DNA of 64,000 nt, taken from Amycolatopsis sp. 195334CR (GTDB lineage Bacteria > Actinomycetota > Actinomycetes > Mycobacteriales > Pseudonocardiaceae). The first letter of the stretch is position 1; each line of letters starts with the position of its first letter. Location of the stretch: NCBI RefSeq assembly GCF_017309385.1, contig NZ_JAFJMJ010000003.1:496001-560000 (forward strand), given 5' to 3'. Shown here one piece after another: positions 15,676 through 25,324 of this stretch. Made by a program: the position numbers and the translations under genes. The notes beneath the pieces are model-generated. The model did no database searches. It saw only the letters and a program-made list of their open reading frames with translations, and was not told the origin of the DNA.

Positions 15676-15731
15676 CGGGTTCCTCCTGCTCGCACTGGTT
15701 TCCGGCGCCCACGGTGGCAGGACCGGCGGTA

Positions 15732-15757
15732 CCGGACTTGCCCGCCGCCGCACACGG
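15732..15757 (+). promoter_or_regulatory. copy of the GMC promoter motif upstream of the aldehyde dehydrogenase
   Basis: CCGGACTTGCCCGCCGCC followed by GCACACGG resembles the block at 13177-13200 and is also followed by GTTGAC. It lies 57-82 bases before the aldehyde dehydrogenase ATG, comparable with the distance at the GMC gene (81-104 bases). Probable shared AraC-regulator site. Confidence 0.55.
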
Positions 15758-15857
15758 GTTGACCAGCGGCGCACAACCGCTGCTGACGAGCGGAACGGCG
15801 GCTTTTCCCCTTCCGCCGATCGCCCTTACGCTTTTCCCATATCGAGGGGAGCCCGGG

Positions 15858-17006
15858 GTGGATGATCTTTTCGGGGTGCTGGCGAAACGCGCGGAAGCGA
15901 ACGCTATCGCCGCGGTGGAAACCTTCGTCAGTCAAATACCGGATTACCGGCGGGAGGCGGCGAATCCGCGGGGGAAGGCGAAGTTGCTCGACCACGCCCT
16001 GTGGTTTCGAAGACACACCGCGGAAAAGGGGCGGACCGGCGAACCGCTGGACGAAAGCACGCTGGCGTTCATCGGCGCCATCGGCCGGTTGCGGGCGGCG
16101 GGCGGGTTCACCACCAGGTCCGTGGAATCCGCGCTGGCCCTGCACACCAACCTGATGCTGAGTGAGATCCAGGCGGCCGCGGCGGAAAACGGGGACGTGA
16201 CCGAACTGCTCCGGTTGACCGCGTGGTTCGGCGCACAGGGGCTCCGTGGTTGCGCCGCTTATCTCAACGGTTATCTGGACGAGCACGCGTTGCGGGTGAA
16301 ACTGGCCCAGCGGGTCCGGGATCTCGCCGAATCACTGCTGGCCAATGCCACCAGCACCGCCGAAATCGCCCACCGGCTGAGCATTGACGTGCACCCGGAG
16401 TATTTTGTCGCGGTACTGCGTTTCACCGCGAAATCAATCGGGGCCGCGGACGAAATCATCGAAGCCGCCTTCAAACAGCATTCGGTGGTGGCGACGTGGC
16501 ACGAACCGGGTGAACTCGTCGCCCTGCTCCCGGTGGACCACGACCGGGCGCTGGCGGTGGTCCGGGAGATGGTGGCGCTGGGCCGGGTGCCGTGCGCGGT
16601 GGGCGCCGCGACCGGCCGCGCGGGCGCGCTGGCCGCGGCCGCCGAGGTGGCCAGGCGGGTGGCCGACGTCGCGCCACCCGAACGGGTGCCCAGCACGCTG
16701 TACGGCATTCCCGAGGTGTTCGTCGAGCTGGGCGTGGCCGGGGTGCCGGAGATCGACCACTGGCTGGGCGAACTGGTGCGGCGGCTGGCCGGCGGCCCGG
16801 AGCTGGTCGCGACGCTGGATGCCTACTACCGCAACGACATGAACCGCCTCGGCGCCGCGCTCGCGCTGCACATCCACCCGCGGACGCTGGACTACCGGCT
16901 GCGGCGGGTCCGCGAACTCGTCGGTGTCGATCCCGGATCCGTGCGCGGGGTGCGCATCCTGAGCAGCGCGGTCGCCCGTGCCGCGCACCGCGGTTGTCAC
17001 AGATGA
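15858..17006 (+). CDS. PucR/CdaR-family transcriptional regulator
   Basis: A 382-residue protein. The start is the GTG at 15858, preceded by GAGGGGAG. The N-terminal 160 residues are helical (RsbRD/PucR N-terminal type); the middle resembles a GGDEF-like PucR domain with FVAVLRFTAKSIG and LVALLPVDHDRAL; the C-terminal HTH_30 is clear: LVATLDAYYRNDMNRLGAALALHIHPRTLDYRLRRVREL. PucR proteins usually activate neighbouring catabolic or secondary operons. It lies divergent from the aldehyde dehydrogenase and just upstream of the E1/RiPP-like operon in the same direction, with two dyads between them. Either may be its target. Confidence 0.9.
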   Translation: MDDLFGVLAKRAEANAIAAVETFVSQIPDYRREAANPRGKAKLLDHALWFRRHTAEKGRTGEPLDESTLAFIGAIGRLRAAGGFTTRSVESALALHTNLMLSEIQAAAAENGDVTELLRLTAWFGAQGLRGCAAYLNGYLDEHALRVKLAQRVRDLAESLLANATSTAEIAHRLSIDVHPEYFVAVLRFTAKSIGAADEIIEAAFKQHSVVATWHEPGELVALLPVDHDRALAVVREMVALGRVPCAVGAATGRAGALAAAAEVARRVADVAPPERVPSTLYGIPEVFVELGVAGVPEIDHWLGELVRRLAGGPELVATLDAYYRNDMNRLGAALALHIHPRTLDYRLRRVRELVGVDPGSVRGVRILSSAVARAAHRGCHR

Positions 17007-17106: not shown

Positions 17107-18066
17107 ATGACGCTGGCGGACGCCGCAACCGCTGTCCAGCGCCGCGACCTGCCGTTGTACGAGACGATGCTCCGGATCCGCGCGTTCGAGGAGACCGCGC
17201 TGGAACTGCAGCGGCGCGGGGAGGTCCCCGGCGCGCTCCACCCGGCCACCGGGCACGAGGCGATCGCGGCCGGGGTCTGCGCGCACCTCGGCCCGGCCGA
17301 CCACGTGGTCAGCTACTACCGCTGCCACGGGCACGCGCTGGCCGTCGGGGTGGACCCGGCCGCGATGTTCGCCGAACTGCTCGGCCGCGCCACCGGGCTC
17401 AACAAGGGCAAGGGCGGTTCGATGCACCTGGCCGACCGCTCGCACCGGTTCCTCGGCGGGAACTCCATCGTCGGCGCCAACGTCGGCATCGCCGCCGGAA
17501 TGGCCGCCGCACTGCGGATCCGGCAGGAACCGGGCGCGGTGGTGGTGTTCTTCGGGGACGGCGCGGTCGGTGCCGGGGTGGTGCTGGAGACCCTGCGGAT
17601 CGCCGCCCACCAGCGCCTGCCGCTGTTGTTCGTCTGCGAGAACAACGGGTACCAGGACCGCACGCGCAGCGAACTGGTGTCCGGCATCGCGCCGGGTGCC
17701 GTCGCCGCCGGTCTCGGGGTGCCTTCGACGAGCGTCGACGGGAACGACGCCAGGGCGGTCGCCGACGCCGCCGGCGCACTGCTCCCGATCGTGCGCGAGG
17801 AACGCACCGCGCGGTTCCTCGACGCCGCCACCTACCTGCGCGACTTCCACTGCCAGTTCGGTCCCGAACCACCCGGCGAATACCGCCCGGTGGACGAGGT
17901 CCGGCGGTGGCGTGCCCGCGATCCGTTGTCCCGTGCGGACTTCGACCTGACCGAGCCTCGGCGGCGCGCCGTCGACGAGATGCGCCTGGCCGCCGCGCAC
18001 GCGCTCGCCCAGCCGGAGCCGTCCGTGAACACGGTCGACGACGACCTGACCGCGGCCCGGTGGTGA
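17107..18066 (+). CDS. thiamine-diphosphate-dependent 2-oxoacid dehydrogenase-type E1 alpha subunit
   Basis: A 319-residue protein of the E1 alpha family. It has YETMLRIRAFEE, HPATGHEAIAAG, SYYRCHGHALAVG, the phosphorylation-loop region LNKGKGGSMHLAD and the thiamine-diphosphate motif GDGAVGAGVVLETL ... FVCENNGYQ near residues 151-180. It pairs with the beta subunit gene 4 bases downstream. No E2 acyltransferase or E3 lipoamide dehydrogenase gene is in the window, so the pair may use its activated aldehyde for another transfer or carboligation, as acetoin-type and natural-product E1 pairs do. First gene of the RiPP-like operon; GGAGG lies before the ATG. Confidence 0.93.
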   Translation: MTLADAATAVQRRDLPLYETMLRIRAFEETALELQRRGEVPGALHPATGHEAIAAGVCAHLGPADHVVSYYRCHGHALAVGVDPAAMFAELLGRATGLNKGKGGSMHLADRSHRFLGGNSIVGANVGIAAGMAAALRIRQEPGAVVVFFGDGAVGAGVVLETLRIAAHQRLPLLFVCENNGYQDRTRSELVSGIAPGAVAAGLGVPSTSVDGNDARAVADAAGALLPIVREERTARFLDAATYLRDFHCQFGPEPPGEYRPVDEVRRWRARDPLSRADFDLTEPRRRAVDEMRLAAAHALAQPEPSVNTVDDDLTAARW

Positions 18067-18070
18067 ACCG

Positions 18071-19018
18071 ATGATCGCCCTGCACGCCGCCCTCGTCCAG
18101 GCCCTGCGCCGCGATCCCGACCTGGTCTACCTGTGCACCTGGCAGCCGGACCTGTTCGTCGACGAGTTCGGGCCGGAGCGGATCCGCAGCATGCCGATCG
18201 CCGAGAACGCCACGCTCGACTTCGCCGTCGGGCTGGCCGCCGCCGGACTGCGGCCGGTGGTCGACCTGGCCCGGGCCGCGTTCCTGTTCACCGCGATGGA
18301 TCCGCTGGTCAACCAGGCGACCAAGCTGCGGTACCTGACCGGTGGCCAGTACGCGGTGCCGCTGACCGTGCGCGCGCAGACCCGTGGCGGCGGTGAATCC
18401 CTTGGCGCGCAACACGAACACCTCCCGTACGCGATGCTCGCGCAGGTCCCGGGACTGGTGGTCGCGGTACCCGGCAGCGGTGCCGAAGCAGCCGGGCTGC
18501 TGGCGACCGCGATGACCCACCCCGATCCGGTGGTCATCCTGGAGTCCCCCGCGTTGTTCACCGACGAACCGCACTGGGCTGGCGGAGACGTCGCCGGAGT
18601 TCCGTTCGGCCGGGTCCGGATCGCCCGGCGCGGCAAGGACATCACCATCGTCGCCATCGGGCTCGGCGTGCGGCACGCGCTCACCGCCGCCGACCGGCTC
18701 GCCGAGTTCGGCGTCAGCGCGATGGTGGTCGACGTGCGCACGGTCGCCCCGCTGGACATCGCCGGGCTCGCCGAATCCGCCGCGGCGACCGGGTCCGTGC
18801 TGGTGGTCGACGAGGCCATCGGCCCCTGTTCGGTCGCCTCGGAGATCGTCGCGAACCTGGCCACCGCGGAGGTGGTGCGGCCACGGCAGGCCAGGCGCTG
18901 CACCGCGCTGCCGGTGCCGTCGCCGTTCAGCCCGGCGCTGCAGCGGGCGGTGTACCCCGGCCCCGAATCCATCGAACGGCAGGCACTGGCCCTGCTCGGC
19001 GAAAGGTCACCGGCATGA
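18071..19018 (+). CDS. thiamine-diphosphate-dependent 2-oxoacid dehydrogenase-type E1 beta subunit
   Basis: A 315-residue transketolase-like beta subunit. MPIAENATLDFAVGLAAAGLRPVVDL is the conserved cofactor-side Glu region; DPLVNQATKLRYLTGGQYAVPLTVR and the region from TRGGGESLGAQHEHL (active-site His) follow; the C-terminal transketolase domain has VVDVRTVAPLD and VLVVDEAIG. It is shorter and more diverged than housekeeping pyruvate or branched-chain E1 beta proteins. It forms an alpha2-beta2 enzyme with the gene upstream. Its stop overlaps the diiron protein start by ATGA, so the two are translationally coupled. Confidence 0.92.
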   Translation: MIALHAALVQALRRDPDLVYLCTWQPDLFVDEFGPERIRSMPIAENATLDFAVGLAAAGLRPVVDLARAAFLFTAMDPLVNQATKLRYLTGGQYAVPLTVRAQTRGGGESLGAQHEHLPYAMLAQVPGLVVAVPGSGAEAAGLLATAMTHPDPVVILESPALFTDEPHWAGGDVAGVPFGRVRIARRGKDITIVAIGLGVRHALTAADRLAEFGVSAMVVDVRTVAPLDIAGLAESAAATGSVLVVDEAIGPCSVASEIVANLATAEVVRPRQARRCTALPVPSPFSPALQRAVYPGPESIERQALALLGERSPA

Positions 19019-19773
19019 CCCTGCTCAAACCCGAGATCACCGCACTGGACGACACCTCGTTCCAGCTCTTCGCCAGCGGCCGGAACAGCGAGCAGTGGTC
19101 GGCGCGCGAGATCATCGGCGACGGCGCCACCGAACTCGACGAGGCGGACACCGAGCGCGCCTGGATCCTCGCGTCCACTTCGTACTTCGCCGAGCAGGCC
19201 GGACTGGTGGCCGCCGCGGAACTGGTGTCGGAGACCGACGACGTCGCCCTGCGCCTGAGCTTCGCCACCGCGGTGTCCGACGAAGCCAGGCACGCCGACG
19301 CCTTCCTCGCTTACGCCGTGGCCCGCGGTGGTGACCTGGCGAACGTCTCCGAGGACGGCTTCCTCGACGAACTGCACGAGACGCTGTCCACCGTGAGCCA
19401 TCTGGAGAAGTTCCTGATGCACACCACCTTCGAGGGTATCGCCGCAGACGAGTTCGTGTTGCTGCAACGAATCTTCGCCGGTGACCCGCTCGGTGAGATC
19501 TACCGGCACGTGCGCTCGGACGAGGTGCGCCACGTCGCGATCGGGCTGAACTACCTGCGCCGCAGTTACGCCACGCCGGAGGGCCGCGAGGAGTGGGACG
19601 CGCACTTCGGCGACTGGTCCGAGCGCGCGCTGCGGATCGCCAGGCTGCCGGAGGTGGCCGCCGGGCTCGGCGCGGTGATGGGCAAACCGGCCGAGCCGAT
19701 CGAGCAGTGGTTCATGCGCCGGCATCGCGCACGTCTGCGCGGGGCCGGAATCCCCGTCCCGGAAAGGAGGTGA
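19015..19773 (+). CDS. ferritin-like diiron protein in RiPP-like operon
   Basis: A 252-residue all-helical protein. Metal ligands of a ferritin-like four-helix bundle are visible: Glu in TSYFAEQAGL, then SDEARHADAF (ExxH), Glu in FEGIAADEF, and RSDEVRHVAIG (second ExxH). This E, ExxH, E, ExxH pattern is that of diiron oxygenases and oxidases such as AurF-type enzymes. It lies between the E1 beta gene and the tiny peptide gene; its stop codon is part of the peptide's ribosome site. An oxidation of the peptide or of an attached group is a reasonable guess, not shown. Confidence 0.85.
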   Translation: MTLLKPEITALDDTSFQLFASGRNSEQWSAREIIGDGATELDEADTERAWILASTSYFAEQAGLVAAAELVSETDDVALRLSFATAVSDEARHADAFLAYAVARGGDLANVSEDGFLDELHETLSTVSHLEKFLMHTTFEGIAADEFVLLQRIFAGDPLGEIYRHVRSDEVRHVAIGLNYLRRSYATPEGREEWDAHFGDWSERALRIARLPEVAAGLGAVMGKPAEPIEQWFMRRHRARLRGAGIPVPERR

Positions 19774-19777
19774 ACCC

Positions 19778-19876
19778 ATGGCGATCAAGAAGGTCCGGCT
19801 CGAGAAGTCGGTGACCGGCACCTGCCGGTACCTGGTGCCGATCAAGACGCAGGCGCGAACCGTGAAGAAGCACTGA
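19778..19876 (+). CDS. 32-residue basic peptide, candidate RiPP precursor
   Basis: A 33-codon frame too short for usual gene finding. It starts at ATG 19778 behind AAAGGAGGTGA (19763-19773), an almost full anti-Shine-Dalgarno complement, the strongest ribosome site in this operon. The peptide opens MAIKKVRLEK, continues SVTGTCRYLVPIKT and ends QARTVKKH; 10 of 32 residues are Lys, Arg or His basic or partly basic, with a single Cys. A 10-bp hairpin follows, then the radical SAM maturase gene. Position, strong translation signal and hairpin are what is expected of a precursor made in excess over its enzymes. It matches no precursor family I know. Confidence 0.75.
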   Translation: MAIKKVRLEKSVTGTCRYLVPIKTQARTVKKH

Positions 19877-19883
19877 CCCACCC

Positions 19884-19911
19884 GTGGGGGGCGTGTGACC
19901 GCGCCCCCCAC
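19884..19911 (+). terminator. G/C hairpin between peptide gene and radical SAM gene, partial terminator or stabiliser
   Basis: GTGGGGGGCG at 19884-19893 pairs perfectly with CGCCCCCCAC at 19902-19911 around an 8-base loop. No T-run follows, so it is more likely a leaky terminator or a 3' barrier that protects the peptide mRNA. It lies 8 bases after the peptide stop. Confidence 0.7.
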
Positions 19912-19928
19912 TCCGGCTTGGAGGCCCG

Positions 19929-21755
19929 ATGCGCAAGCTCAACGTCCGGCTGGCCGCGATGCCGTGGCAGGCCCTCGACATGCCCTCGCTGCCGTTGGGC
20001 CTCCTCCGGGCGTCGTGCCGGTCGGCGGGCCGCGAGGCCCCGGCCTGTTACCACGGGAACATGCACTGGGCGGAGTTCCTGCTGGAGCGGTCCGACGGTG
20101 AACTCGGCCCGAACGAGTACCTGGAGGTGGCCGAGAACGGCATCTTCCACGGGATCGGCGACTTCGTGTTCACCGGGGTGCTGCACGGCGGCGACTTCGG
20201 CATGGCCGAGTTCACCGACCTGCTGCGGCGCCGGGGTTTCGACCCGGGCCGCGCGCTGGACATGCGCCCGCACGCCGAGGAGTTCATCGACCTGGCGGCC
20301 CGCGAGATCCTGGCCGGCGAGCCGGACCTGGTCGGGTTCAGCAGCACGTTCATGCAGAACGTGCCGAGCCTGGCGCTGGCGGCCAGGATCAAGCAGTACG
20401 CCCCGGGGGTATTGACCGTGCTCGGCGGCGGCAACTGCGACGGGCCGATGGGCGCCGCGCTCCACCGCAACTACGCCTGCCTGGACTACGTGGTGCGCGG
20501 TGAAGGCGAGGAGATCTTCCCGGCGCTGCTGGACGCGATCGAGCGCGAGGTGGAACCGGTGGACCTGCCCGGGCTGTGCTGGCGTCGTGACGGGGAAAGC
20601 GTCGCCAACCCCGACCGGCGCGAACCGCTGCCGCCGGGCCGCATCCCGATGCCGGACTTCGACGACTGGTTCGAGCTGGTCGAGAGCTCCCCGCTCGAAG
20701 GGCACGTCCAGCCGAAGCTGGTGCTCGAATCGGCCCGCGGCTGCTGGTGGGGCGAGCTGCACCACTGCACCTTCTGCGGGCTCAACGGGTCGCTGATGCA
20801 GTTCCGCAGCAAGGCGCCGGAGCGGGTGCTCGGCGAGATCTCGCACCTGGTGGCCCGGCACCGCACGCTCGACATCATCATGGTGGACAACATCATCGAC
20901 AACGCCTACTTCACCACGCTGCTGCCCGACATCGCCGCGCTGGACTGGGACCTCCGCATCCACTACGAGGTCAAGGCGAACCTGACCCCGGCGCAGATCG
21001 GGGCCCTGCGCGACGCCCGCGTGGCGCACCTGCAGCCCGGCATCGAGTCGCTGAGCACGCGGGTGCTGAAGCTGATGGACAAGGGCGTGGACGCGATCCG
21101 GAACGTGCGCACCCTGCGCGACTGCCATTCCGCGCAGCTCGACACCACCTGGAACCTGCTCTTCGGCTTCCCCGGCGAGACCGACGACGACTACTGGCCG
21201 CTGATCCGCCAGCTGCCCGCGCTGGTCCACCTCCAGCCGCCGTCGGACGCCACGCCGATCCTGCTCGAACGGTTCAGCCCGAACTTCGACCGGCCGGAGC
21301 TGGGCTTCGGCTGGCGACGGCCCGCCGAGATCTACCGGCACGTCTACGACCTGCCGCAGCGGGAGCTGGAAGATCTGGTGTACCTGTTCGACAGCGAGGA
21401 GCTCGGCATTCTCGGCGAGGTGGTCGAGGCGCTCGAAGAGGCCATCGAGGAGTGGAAGAAACGGCACCACGAAAGCAGTCTGCTGCGCGTCGACTTCGAC
21501 GGCGGGATCCTGCTGGAGGACCGCCGCAGCGGGTGGCCGGTGCGCGACCACCACATCGAGGACCCGGCGCTGGTCGCCGCCTACCGGGAGCTGGAGCAGG
21601 GCCGGTCCAGCCGGGCTCTGTTGTCCAAAGTGGAGATCACCGCGGCACGGCTGGAGGCCTGGCTCGGCGAACTCCGCGAGGCGGGCCTCGTTTTCCACGA
21701 GGGCGACCGGTTCCTCGCGCTCGCCACCACCAGCGTTCCGGTGAGGATCAAGTAG
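19929..21755 (+). CDS. B12-binding radical SAM RiPP-maturation protein (TIGR03975-like)
   Basis: A 608-residue protein. Residues 1-190 form a cobalamin-binding-type domain (LAAMPWQALDMPSLPLGLL; FSSTFMQNVPSLALA; VLGGGNCDGPMG; YVVRGEGEEIFPALL). The radical SAM part has the characteristic ESARGCWWGELHHCTFCGLN, giving Cys272-x7-Cys280-x2-Cys283, the unusual spacing of the family named RiPP maturation radical SAM C-methyltransferase. LLFGFPGETDDDY is another conserved block. The C-terminal 150 residues resemble a winged-helix-like substrate domain (RSSRALLSKVEI...LREAGLVF). Known relatives act beside small precursor peptides. GGAGG at 19919-19923 precedes the ATG. Confidence 0.92.
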   Translation: MRKLNVRLAAMPWQALDMPSLPLGLLRASCRSAGREAPACYHGNMHWAEFLLERSDGELGPNEYLEVAENGIFHGIGDFVFTGVLHGGDFGMAEFTDLLRRRGFDPGRALDMRPHAEEFIDLAAREILAGEPDLVGFSSTFMQNVPSLALAARIKQYAPGVLTVLGGGNCDGPMGAALHRNYACLDYVVRGEGEEIFPALLDAIEREVEPVDLPGLCWRRDGESVANPDRREPLPPGRIPMPDFDDWFELVESSPLEGHVQPKLVLESARGCWWGELHHCTFCGLNGSLMQFRSKAPERVLGEISHLVARHRTLDIIMVDNIIDNAYFTTLLPDIAALDWDLRIHYEVKANLTPAQIGALRDARVAHLQPGIESLSTRVLKLMDKGVDAIRNVRTLRDCHSAQLDTTWNLLFGFPGETDDDYWPLIRQLPALVHLQPPSDATPILLERFSPNFDRPELGFGWRRPAEIYRHVYDLPQRELEDLVYLFDSEELGILGEVVEALEEAIEEWKKRHHESSLLRVDFDGGILLEDRRSGWPVRDHHIEDPALVAAYRELEQGRSSRALLSKVEITAARLEAWLGELREAGLVFHEGDRFLALATTSVPVRIK

Positions 21756-22322
21756 ATGGACGTTTCGGTCGATCCACGGGTGCGCCACGTCGACCCGGTG
21801 GACCTGCTCGCGCTCGACCCCGCGGCGTTGTCCGCGGCCGGGGTGCAGCTGCTGGTGCTGCCCGAACCGGTGAGCTTCGGCTCGGACGACGAGCGGGACC
21901 TGCGGTTTCTGCGGTTGTTGCGGGAGGCGGTGTCCTACACCCTGCGGATCGAGTGGCGGGCGCGGGCGGTGCCGTTCGACCTGACCATGGTGGGGCACCT
22001 GCCGCCGCCGCTCGGGGACGAGGGCCGGGAATGGCGGGACACCTACCGGTTCGGCCTCTGCTACTACCAGCGCGGGCCGAACTTCGTGCTGTTGAAGGAC
22101 GTGCGCGGTGAGGGCGGGGCGCGGTACCGGATCGACGACGAGCAGGCGATGTCGGTGTGGCCGGAACTGGAACCGGTGCGGCACCGGGATTCCCTCACCC
22201 CGGCGGCGCGGGAACTCTGCGCGCTGCTGGAGGAAGAGGAACTGCTGATGCGCCGCGGTGACTGGGTGACGCACCTGCCGTACCGGCTGCGCCGCTGGCC
22301 GGTGCCGTTCGACGCGATCTGA
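21756..22322 (+). CDS. small partner protein of the radical SAM enzyme (DUF5825-like)
   Basis: A 188-residue soluble protein whose ATG directly follows the TAG of the radical SAM gene. It contains VDPVDLLALDPAALSAAGVQLLVLPEPVSFG, GLCYYQRGPNFVLLKDVR and LLMRRGDWVTHLPYRLRRW. The pattern agrees with proteins labelled DUF5825 that I recall next to the same class of radical SAM gene; this memory has not been checked. It could bind the precursor peptide or help the maturase. Activity unknown. Confidence 0.72.
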   Translation: MDVSVDPRVRHVDPVDLLALDPAALSAAGVQLLVLPEPVSFGSDDERDLRFLRLLREAVSYTLRIEWRARAVPFDLTMVGHLPPPLGDEGREWRDTYRFGLCYYQRGPNFVLLKDVRGEGGARYRIDDEQAMSVWPELEPVRHRDSLTPAARELCALLEEEELLMRRGDWVTHLPYRLRRWPVPFDAI

Positions 22323-22324
22323 CC

Positions 22325-23566
22325 GTGGCGCCGGGCCTGCTTCGCGCGCATCCGGTGTTCCGCTCGGTGCTCGCGGCGCGGGCGGTCAGCGCGCTGGGTG
22401 ACCGGTTCTCGCTGGTCGCCGTGCCGGTGCTGGCCCTGTCGTCGGCCGGGGCGACGGCGGGGCAGGTGGCGCTGCTGTGGACGGTGCAGCTGCTGCCCGG
22501 CGCGGTGCTGGCCCTGCCCGCCGCCGCGAACCTGGTCGGCCGGCCGGAGCGGGCCGCGATGATCGCCTGCGACCTGCTGCGGGCGGTGTTGCTGCTGGGC
22601 GTGTTCGGCCTGGCGGCGGGCGGTGAGCTGCGGTTGTGGCACCTGTTCGCGGTGGTGCCGGTGATCGGCGTGCTGACCACGGTGTTCGACGTGGGCGCGC
22701 AGGCCTACGTGCCGCGGATCGTCGACCGCGCCGACTACGCCGAGGCGAACAGCCGGTTCACCCAGGCCGAAAGCGCCGCGGACGTGGCCGGACCGCTCAT
22801 CGCGGGCGTGCTGATCGGTTTCGCGGGCGCGGGCACGGCGTTGCTGGTGGACGCGGTGAGCTTCCTGCTGTCGGCGGTGTTCCTGGCCCCGATCCGGCCG
22901 GTGCACGACCAGCCGGTCGAAGTGGCGCCTTCGGGGTGGTGGCGCAACCTGCGCGACGGACTCCGGTTCGTCGCGGGCCGCCCGGTGCTGCGGGCGCTGG
23001 TGGCGGCGTTCGCGTTGTTCAACTTCGGGGGCGCGGTGGTCAGCTCGCTCTGGTTCGCCTACCTGCTCGACCACCTGCGGTTGTCGCCTTCGGTGACCGG
23101 CGGGCTGATCACCGTCGGCGGGGTCAGCGGGCTGGTCGCGGCGCTGGCCACGGGCCGGGTGCTGCGGCGGGCCAGCCCGCGCGTGGTGTTGCCGGTGTCG
23201 CTGGTGGTCATCGTGGTTTCGCTGTGGTTCGTGCCGCTGGCCGCCCTCGGGTCACCGATCGCCCTGCTGGCCGCCTACCAGGCCTTGTTCGGTGCGGGGG
23301 TGGCTTTCTTCGCGGTCACCGCCGCCACGGTCCGGCAGCTGCTGACGCCCGTCGACCAGCAGGGGCGGGTGTACGCGGTGTTCTACACATTCTCCTTGCT
23401 GACCGTGCCTTTCGGCGGTTTGCTGGGCAGCGCGCTCGCCACGTCGTTCTCGCCGGTGGTCGCCATCGCGGTGGGCGCGGGCGTCGCGGCCACCAGCCTG
23501 CTCACGCTGCGCCGCTATCATTCGCGGGATGTCGACCTGGCTGACCGACACCCGGACCTCCTATGA
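22325..23566 (+). CDS. MFS transporter, probable exporter of the operon product
   Basis: A 413-residue protein with about twelve hydrophobic segments. The N-terminal half has RAVSALGDRFSLVAVPVLAL and ANSRFTQAESAADVAGPLIAG, both typical of the MFS_3-type (EntS-like) exporters in actinomycetes. The GTG at 22325 is 2 bases after the previous stop, so it belongs to the operon. Export of a peptide product is a plausible role from context; the family also exports siderophores and drugs. It ends 52 bases before the convergent phoD stop. Confidence 0.9.
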   Translation: MAPGLLRAHPVFRSVLAARAVSALGDRFSLVAVPVLALSSAGATAGQVALLWTVQLLPGAVLALPAAANLVGRPERAAMIACDLLRAVLLLGVFGLAAGGELRLWHLFAVVPVIGVLTTVFDVGAQAYVPRIVDRADYAEANSRFTQAESAADVAGPLIAGVLIGFAGAGTALLVDAVSFLLSAVFLAPIRPVHDQPVEVAPSGWWRNLRDGLRFVAGRPVLRALVAAFALFNFGGAVVSSLWFAYLLDHLRLSPSVTGGLITVGGVSGLVAALATGRVLRRASPRVVLPVSLVVIVVSLWFVPLAALGSPIALLAAYQALFGAGVAFFAVTAATVRQLLTPVDQQGRVYAVFYTFSLLTVPFGGLLGSALATSFSPVVAIAVGAGVAATSLLTLRRYHSRDVDLADRHPDLL

Positions 23567-23618: not shown

Positions 23619-25199
23619 TCACGCGGGTTGCACGCCGGGACGGTGGTCTTCGACGACGTAGCTGGCTCGCGTCGAGACAGGCGCGCCCGGCTTCGTGACG
23701 TACGGCAGGACCCGGAAGTCGCTGCGCCACCGGTGCCGGTCGACGTCGACGCGCACGTAACCCCGCTGGGCGTTGAAGAACTTCATGTGCGGGTTCGCCG
23801 CCAGGAACTTCACGCCGTCGTCGTTCAGGTCCGCGCCGTCGGCCCCGCTGCTCACCGAGGTCCCGACGAACTCACTGGCCACCACCGGCGAATCCGGGTC
23901 GGCGAAGTCCCGCTTCAGGTCCCACGCGTAGTTCTGGTGCCGGTCCCCGGTGATCACCACCAGGTTCCGCACGTTCCGGTCCTGCGCGGCGGCCAGCACC
24001 CGGTCGCGGTCGGCCACGTACCCGTCCCACGGGTCGTACCAGACGTCGACCGCCGGGCCCGGGTCGCGGTCGGTCTGCCCGATCGGCGCCTGGTTGCCCA
24101 GGATCTGCCACCGCGCGTCGGACCGGCTGAAGCCGTCGAGCAGCCACTCGCGCTGTGCGGCGCCGAGGATCGTGCGGTCGGTGTCGAACCGGTCGGCGCA
24201 GTCGACCCCACCACCGTCACCGCACGGCTGGTCGTCCCGGTACTGCCGGGTGTCGATCATCGTGAGATCCGCCAGCCGCCCGTACTTCAGGCGGCGGTGC
24301 ATGCGGATGTCCGCGCCCGACGGCATCTGCGCCCGCCGCAGCGGCAGGTTCTCGTACATCGCCTGGAAAGCCGCGGCCCGCCGCGCCCGGAACACCGCGG
24401 GGTCCTGGTCGGGTTCGGTGTCCGCCTGGGAGATGTCGCCCGCCCAGTTGTTCTCCACCTCGTGGTCGTCGAAGGTCACGATCCACGGGAACCGCGCGTG
24501 CGCCAGCTGGAGCGGGGCCTCCATTTTGTACAGTGAGTACTGCAGCCGGTACCGGGCCAGGTCGAAGGTCTCGGTGTGGAACCGCGGGTCGACGGTCACC
24601 CCGCGCTTGTTCGTGCCGACCCCGGTTTCGTAGAGGTAGTCCCCGAGGTGCACCACGAAGTCGAGGTCCTCGGCGGCCATGTGGTCGTACGCGGTGAAGT
24701 ACCCGTCCTGCCACGCCTGGCACGAGGCGAACGCGAACCGCAGTTCGTTCGGGTTGGCCCACGCCGCGGGCATCGTCCTGGTCCGGCCGACCGGCGAGAC
24801 CTCGCCACCCACCCGGAACCGGTAGTGGTACTCACGATCCGGCGCCAGGCCGTGGATCTCGGGGTGCACCGAATGCCCCAGCTCGGGCGTGGCCACCACG
24901 CTGCCGCGGCGCACCACCTGCCGGAAGCGCTCGTCCCGCGCGAGTTCGTACTCCACCCGCACCGGTTTGGCCGGCATGCCACCCGCACCGTCCACAGCGA
25001 ACGGATCCGGGGCGAGCCGCGTCCACAGCACCACGCCGTCCGGCGCCGGATCGCCCGAGGCGACCCCGAGGGTGAACGGGTTCGACGTCCCCGCCGGCGC
25101 GGCGAAGGCACCCGCCGCGTTCCACACTCCGTTGCCGAGCAGCACCGCCCCGATCCCGGCTCCGCCGTACCCGAGCAGCTGCCGACGCGAAATCGTCAC
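23619..25199 (-). CDS. phoD: PhoD-type alkaline phosphatase/phosphodiesterase, Tat-secreted
   Basis: A 526-residue secreted metallophosphatase. The N-terminus carries a Tat signal, SRRQLLGYGG, followed by a hydrophobic run and AFAAP. The PhoD N-terminal domain (FTLGVASGDPAPDGVVLWTRLAP) is followed by the calcineurin-like domain: FASCQAWQDG, FVVHLGDYLYE, VTFDDHEVENNW and VITGDRHQN are metal-binding blocks. The GTG at 25199 was chosen because GGAG lies 8 bases before it; a GTG 21 bases earlier is in frame. It releases phosphate from phosphodiesters outside the cell. It lies downstream of the rhamnosidase gene with a 125-base gap, where no convincing Pho box was seen. Confidence 0.92.
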   Translation of the reverse strand: MTISRRQLLGYGGAGIGAVLLGNGVWNAAGAFAAPAGTSNPFTLGVASGDPAPDGVVLWTRLAPDPFAVDGAGGMPAKPVRVEYELARDERFRQVVRRGSVVATPELGHSVHPEIHGLAPDREYHYRFRVGGEVSPVGRTRTMPAAWANPNELRFAFASCQAWQDGYFTAYDHMAAEDLDFVVHLGDYLYETGVGTNKRGVTVDPRFHTETFDLARYRLQYSLYKMEAPLQLAHARFPWIVTFDDHEVENNWAGDISQADTEPDQDPAVFRARRAAAFQAMYENLPLRRAQMPSGADIRMHRRLKYGRLADLTMIDTRQYRDDQPCGDGGGVDCADRFDTDRTILGAAQREWLLDGFSRSDARWQILGNQAPIGQTDRDPGPAVDVWYDPWDGYVADRDRVLAAAQDRNVRNLVVITGDRHQNYAWDLKRDFADPDSPVVASEFVGTSVSSGADGADLNDDGVKFLAANPHMKFFNAQRGYVRVDVDRHRWRSDFRVLPYVTKPGAPVSTRASYVVEDHRPGVQPA

Positions 25200-25324
25200 T
25201 TCAGGATCTCCTGTCCTCACCGAACTCGCGGAATTTCATAACCCGGGCCGTTAGCGCGCAACAAGGGTTCTGCCCGAAGTACAGGCCGTGTTCACGTCGC
25301 CGACGCCGGATGGAACGGCAGAAG

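Follow-up and report, generated by a model that had tools for sequence, protein, structure and literature searches.

A candidate ribosomal peptide cluster with an E1-like enzyme pair, a predicted R2-like oxidase and a B12-binding radical SAM maturase in Amycolatopsis sp. 195334CR

A set of seven co-directional frames has been identified at positions 17107-23566 of a stretch of 64,000 nucleotides from Amycolatopsis sp. 195334CR (C3:496001-560000), referred to below as the window. The set has the make-up of a cluster for a ribosomally synthesised and post-translationally modified peptide (RiPP). Its features and its two neighbouring genes are as follows.

17107..18066, forward strand: E1-alpha-like subunit of a thiamine pyrophosphate (TPP) enzyme (PF00676, E1_dh), member of a cluster-specific clade
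18071..19018, forward strand: E1-beta-like subunit (Transket_pyr and Transketolase_C) that keeps the positions of the IAEN glutamate and the AQH histidine
19015..19773, forward strand: predicted R2-like ferritin-fold di-metal oxidase (diiron protein), with putative ligands E60, E90, H93, E140, E170 and H173
19778..19876, forward strand: RiPP precursor candidate of 32 residues, with a leader-like MAIKKVRLEK and a core of GTCRY and the residues that follow
19884..19911, forward strand: hairpin of 12 bp that immediately follows the stop codon of the precursor (z = -1.8 in the window, weak on its own)
19929..21755, forward strand: B12-binding radical S-adenosylmethionine (radical SAM) RiPP maturase, TIGR03975 (Pfam Radical_SAM and B12-binding)
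21756..22322, forward strand: DUF5825 partner protein
22325..23566, forward strand: predicted exporter of the major facilitator superfamily (MFS_1; TIGR00900-like, below the cut-off of that model)
15714..17006, forward strand: PucR/CdaR-type regulator, upstream
23619-25220, opposite strand: PhoD phosphatase gene, downstream of the cluster

The candidate precursor has the sequence MAIKKVRLEKSVTGTCRYLVPIKTQARTVKKH, and its ribosome site, AGGAGGTGA, runs through the stop codon of the diiron gene. The E1-beta and diiron genes overlap in ATGA, the stop of the radical SAM gene is adjacent to the start of the DUF5825 gene (TAG/ATG) and two bases separate the latter from the MFS gene. A preliminary description, made from the letters alone, had reported six genes and a 32-codon peptide gene in one direction with tight junctions and a peptide ribosome site inside the diiron stop; the gene order, coordinates and junctions are as described there, and so is the ribosome site. 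The same holds for the Cys-x7-Cys-x2-Cys pattern and cobalamin-type domain that it had ascribed to the radical SAM protein, for its diiron ferritin-like assignment, as far as a structure model can support it, and for the absence of an E2 from the window, each of which is taken up below. The PucR/CdaR-type protein, also encoded upstream of E1-alpha in a relative of the same genus (L013), is a possible regulator of the cluster.

The radical SAM protein matches TIGR03975 at 560 bits (cut-off 281.85) and has a B12-binding match. Its cysteines, C272-x7-C280-x2-C283, are identical in all four rows of an alignment of the window with three relatives. A known RiPP maturase family is therefore present, and its gene adjoins that of DUF5825, the C-terminal half of which shows a weak structural match to RiPP recognition elements (RRE). 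In the biosynthesis of clavusporin, as far as the accessible text describes it, a B12-radical SAM/DUF5825 pair serves a C-methylated RiPP (PMC12257519). By analogy, the pair in the window may C-methylate residues of the precursor core. No peptidase has been found among the nine window genes scanned for families, which, together with an exporter of the MFS and not of the ATP-binding cassette (ABC) type, suggests a small final product. A second TIGR03975 protein, about 31% identical to that of the window, is encoded in a Micromonospora neighbourhood (L039:76-4201 and L040:957-5082) beside a Trp-halogenase family protein, a HalD/BesD-like halogenase, a TauD-like oxygenase and a methyltransferase (including L039:5153-8202), and possibly belongs to another RiPP cluster.

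A search with the radical SAM protein has led to relatives in Micromonospora phaseoli (L002), M. qiuiae (L003) and Actinoplanes lutulentus (L004). The two Micromonospora loci keep the diiron gene, the E1 pair, DUF5825 and the MFS gene. The Actinoplanes locus keeps the radical SAM and DUF5825 genes without E1, diiron or a match to the MFS protein of the window, and transporter-like frames are seen nearby by eye. With the diiron protein as bait, three positives were found among 390 genomes of the family to which the window belongs, namely the window, G530 (98% identity) and G447 (42%). The family of M. phaseoli, which we take to be Micromonosporaceae, yielded 16 of 354 genomes, two of them weak (L053, L054), and a class-wide search of 394 genomes returned the window and five weak matches. 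No match at E <= 1e-35 was obtained in the 297 genomes of family f21, a search that held no known positive, so that its emptiness shows nothing. L053 and L054 hold none of the other query genes, bar a partial P450 match in L054, and L053 starts at a contig end. The seven weak matches were dropped, leaving 17 strong diiron loci (the window, G530, G447 and L039-L052). Their neighbourhoods of 20 kb were compared by tblastn, on which the gene counts rest because the GC-based gene caller missed or mis-framed some genes.

The peptide, radical SAM, DUF5825 and MFS genes are present at all 17 diiron loci, and both E1 genes lie within 20 kb at 16. The whole set forms a single operon in the window and G530. 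The E1 genes of L039-L052 are on the strand opposite to the diiron-peptide-radical SAM genes, either beside the MFS gene and divergent (L039-L048) or beyond DUF5825 and convergent (L049-L052). The G447 locus keeps the peptide, diiron, radical SAM, DUF5825 and MFS genes without E1 (best E1-alpha match 35%), so E1 is not obligatory. A class-III aminotransferase is encoded beside E1 in 13 of the 14 loci of the M. phaseoli family, 12 in the fetched stretches and that of L040 beyond the edge; it is absent from the window, from L013 and L014 and from the L051 cluster. A P450 gene adjoins DUF5825 in seven of the 17 loci (L045-L051). The gene set first read in the window is thus confirmed and recurs with all six members at 16 of 17 diiron loci, the window included; as a fixed set it did not hold, given G447, and the relatives add an aminotransferase (13/17) and a P450 (7/17) that could not be seen in the window. 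What is common to all loci is the peptide, radical SAM, DUF5825, diiron and MFS genes, with E1, the aminotransferase and the P450 variable.

A short frame directly follows the diiron gene at each of the strong loci, the window included. In a scan of the radical SAM strand, G[TSV]C[KR]Y in a soon-stopping frame occurs once per locus at all 17 (twice in L043), and no such short frame was found in L004, the locus without E1 and diiron. The occurrence of the motif at the diiron loci is not due to chance. Conservation of the peptide frame in relatives that keep the maturase, on which the preliminary description had staked its proposal, is hence borne out at all the diiron loci. Its reading of the set as a RiPP system is supported, while the methylation, oxidation and acylation that it had suggested are still proposals. 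The 18 frames represent 15 distinct peptides of 22-34 residues, alignable without internal gaps, in which Ile3, Val6, Gly14, Cys16 (15/15) and Tyr18 are invariant. The precursors end in H, S, K or L, and their C-termini vary in length and sequence; that of L042 ends four residues past the Tyr, so that the residues beyond are dispensable. Between the window and G530 the frame differs by one synonymous and no nonsynonymous change, at low divergence. L049 and L050 carry a second peptide copy just before the intact one (THGVSKH and THGVSQH), without Cys and Tyr, which is either decayed or in another role.

The locus of Actinoplanes lutulentus encodes a different candidate precursor of 35 residues, MKIKVENVKRPDETRTKKELPRSTGIIPIRSLENK, before its radical SAM gene (L004:8838-8945). 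The N-terminus of this peptide is similar, and its stop is followed by a hairpin (z -2.3). The invariant N-terminal residues of the diiron-linked peptides alternate in a strand-like manner, and this, with the similar start (MKIK...VK) and different remainder of the L004 peptide, suggests a division into leader and core. The G-x-C-K/R-Y core is the probable target of modification.

A GC-rich hairpin often follows the precursor stop, with an uninterrupted stem of at least 9 pairs in 13 of the 17 loci. The stem of L014 has eight pairs, and L046-L048 are without such a stem (counts made by hand from the output). Against 100 shuffles the energy z-score is at most -2 in 11 of the 17 loci and weaker in six, among them the window. 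Hairpins placed between the genes of precursor and maturase commonly serve to make more precursor than enzyme, and this one is a possible attenuator or mRNA stabiliser.

Neither the diiron protein nor the precursor has a match in Pfam or NCBIfam. The structure model of the former is R2-like, with two E-x29-ExxH ligand sets that complete the predicted six-residue ligand pattern, and oxidation by this enzyme is proposed on the basis of the modelled fold and pattern. Named heme-oxygenase-like oxidases are not among the Foldseek or VIA-align rows shown, which does not exclude them. The best PDB sequence match, a dehydrogenase fragment at E 0.0098, was disregarded. A protein search gave 103 relatives among 7997 scored candidates, and the named ones are actinobacterial except for one from the myxobacterium Corallococcus coralloides (P0102, 38% identical in the alignment). 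Those named from Streptomyces capparidis and Kitasatospora indicate that the family extends beyond the genomes sampled. Diiron and DUF5825 proteins have also been found as pairs on contigs of equal size (P0006/P0142, 34483; P0073/P0149, 13789; P0069/P0159, 18654), a hint that the two genes are linked in clusters of Actinophytocola and other relatives.

Aligned with other E1 genes of seven genomes, the E1 pair keeps the GDG motif for TPP binding, including the downstream pair that ends in N. The glutamate of IAEN and the histidine of AQH in E1-beta, which we take to be catalytic, are kept as well. In a tree that carries a long-branch warning, the E1-alpha proteins of the clusters group in a single clade, separate from 17 other E1-alpha genes of the seven genomes; a housekeeping origin of the E1 genes was rejected on this clade, long branches notwithstanding. 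E1 enzymes decarboxylate 2-oxoacids and normally acylate a lipoyl disulfide. The window contains no E2 catalytic domain (PF00198), no search for E3 having been made. All five PF00198 matches of the genome lie outside the window, and just one of them shares its contig, at C3:1370639. The E1 pair may carry out an acylation.

For the aminotransferase of L046, the only one scanned, the best of 69 matched families is the daptide aminotransferase NF041821 (239 bits, cut-off 450), and the PigE model stands 23rd; no relative of this protein has been found at E <= 1e-40 in G000. The L040 aminotransferase (L078, G782:C31:20349-21653, from M. qiuiae) holds one in-frame TAG, and is either a pseudogene or affected by a sequence error. 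After the E1-less G447 cluster, L014:14041-16593 contains a stretch similar to short-chain dehydrogenases (29% identity) and a frame resembling flavin amine oxidases by eye, which are possible alternative tailoring enzymes.

The existence of a RiPP-type cluster with this composition is regarded as highly probable: the sequences themselves show the gene set, its linkage and conservation and the kept catalytic-site residues, together with the predicted folds. That it represents a new RiPP family working in the manner outlined here is a tentative proposal, somewhat short of an even chance, in which the chemical steps are inferred throughout, as are their order and their sites. The leader, I-x-x-V-x-[ILV]-[KE], would dock on the RRE-like half of DUF5825 and present the core G-[TSV]-C-[KR]-Y, residues of which would be C-methylated by the radical SAM/DUF5825 pair. 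The R2-like diiron enzyme may then oxidise an unactivated position, probably to an aldehyde or ketone. Following the proposal for AviB1/AviB2, the E1 pair without an E2 would decarboxylate a 2-oxoacid and transfer the acyl carbanion to the peptide carbonyl, giving an alpha-hydroxyketone. Where present, the aminotransferase would aminate the new ketone and the P450 would decorate the product further in some clusters, before the small product is exported by the MFS protein. The linkage of E1 with the aminotransferase, whose best-scoring model aminates peptide ketones in the available description of the daptides (PMC10036551), is most simply read as acyl transfer with subsequent amination. The role of the E1 pair as a dedicated peptide carboligase, forming a carbon-carbon bond by thiamine umpolung on the carbonyl made by the R2-like enzyme, with the class-III aminotransferase making an amine in the Micromonospora relatives, is less likely than not.

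The E1 pair and aminotransferase could instead make a separate building block, such as an acyloin or amino ketone, that is joined later or is a co-product, so that E1 never touches the peptide. The opposite strand of E1, and of the aminotransferase where present, in L039-L052 and the lack of E1 in G447 agree with this; the nine window genes scanned include no ligase or other attaching enzyme, the E1 genes of the window share an operon with the peptide, and the distances of E1 and radical SAM genes track each other, and we regard it as unlikely. A somewhat lower probability is given to attack of the acyl-thiamine carbanion on the sulfur of Cys16 after its oxidation by the diiron enzyme. The resulting S-acyl cysteine would retain the native chemistry of E1, whose active-site positions are kept and whose usual acyl acceptor is the lipoyl disulfide, and Cys16 is the same in every distinct peptide; the linked aminotransferase is left unexplained, and we know of no sulfenate-forming R2-like enzyme.

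The peptide might also be the donor and not the acceptor, if the diiron enzyme or the aminotransferase made a terminal peptidyl 2-oxoacid for E1 to decarboxylate to an aldehyde. Decarboxylation of 2-oxoacids is the usual activity of E1, and the daptides, in the text available, lose the terminal carboxylate before transamination (PMC10036551). The variable C-termini and the internal position of the conserved core nevertheless make this improbable. Least probable is that the short frame arose by chance or encodes a regulatory leader peptide, with the enzymes making a non-ribosomal small molecule: the frame is short and is followed in most loci by an attenuator-like hairpin, yet its amino-acid motif is kept at every diiron locus next to the genes of TIGR03975 and DUF5825, which are known as a pair in RiPPs, it is duplicated in L043, and in L004 the radical SAM gene of the same pair is preceded by another short frame.

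Peptide carboligation by the E1 pair, if true, would extend the RiPP repertoire by the acyl-anion chemistry of thiamine and by R2-like oxidation and provide a genetically encoded carbon-carbon extension of ribosomal peptides. To our knowledge this would be the first RiPP family tailored by a central-metabolism-type E1 pair and an R2-like oxidase. Among the matches listed from the open-licence PMC literature, no RiPP cluster described as having E1 or R2-like enzymes, nor any RiPP role for R2-like proteins, has been found. A function in leader binding is also proposed for one half of DUF5825. The precursors of 22-34 residues and the seven-gene operon make the proposal directly testable in a heterologous host.

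The cluster shares components with several known systems. 2-Oxoacid dehydrogenase complexes encode an E2 with E1, unlike the window with its lack of a PF00198 match. R2-like ligand-binding oxidase and ribonucleotide reductase R2 have the fold and the complete six-residue ligand pattern predicted for the diiron protein, at 9-17% identity among the VIA-align rows shown. Prodigiosin biosynthesis offers a precedent for carboligation followed by transamination, as PigD catalyses the thiamine-dependent carboligation of pyruvate and PigE the class-III transamination; PigD differs from the E1 pair of the window in being a single-chain TPP enzyme whose substrate is an enal rather than a peptide.

E1-like pairs are described in the accessible text for avilamycin (AviB1/AviB2, together with the nonheme iron enzyme AviO2) and paulomycin (Pau11/Pau12), where the former is proposed to transfer an acyl unit onto a ketosugar (PMC4425429, PMC4753412). 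The likeness is drawn from their description, and both pairs act on sugars, unlike the peptide proposed here. Daptides, as far as they are described in the text available, resemble the cluster in being RiPPs: their class-III aminotransferase works on a ketone of the peptide, and they have a DUF partner that contains an RRE (PMC10036551). They differ in needing a C-terminal Thr, an oxidative decarboxylase of the alcohol-dehydrogenase type and a methyltransferase (PMC10036551), of which the window genes scanned offer none. Daptide membership was rejected on the precursor C-termini, which are not Thr, and on the aminotransferase score of 239 against 450. The biphenomycin-type clusters, with YHxYxY precursors, also hold a B12-radical SAM protein and DUF5825, and use multinuclear non-heme iron-dependent oxidative enzyme (MNIO) chemistry, with no E1 or R2-like enzyme named in the part of the source available (PMC12257519). 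The clavusporin-type pair, known here by description only from the same partial source (PMC12257519), is likewise a B12-radical SAM protein beside DUF5825 acting on a ribosomal peptide, and the window is set apart from it by the E1 pair, the R2-like diiron enzyme and the precursor of 22-34 residues.

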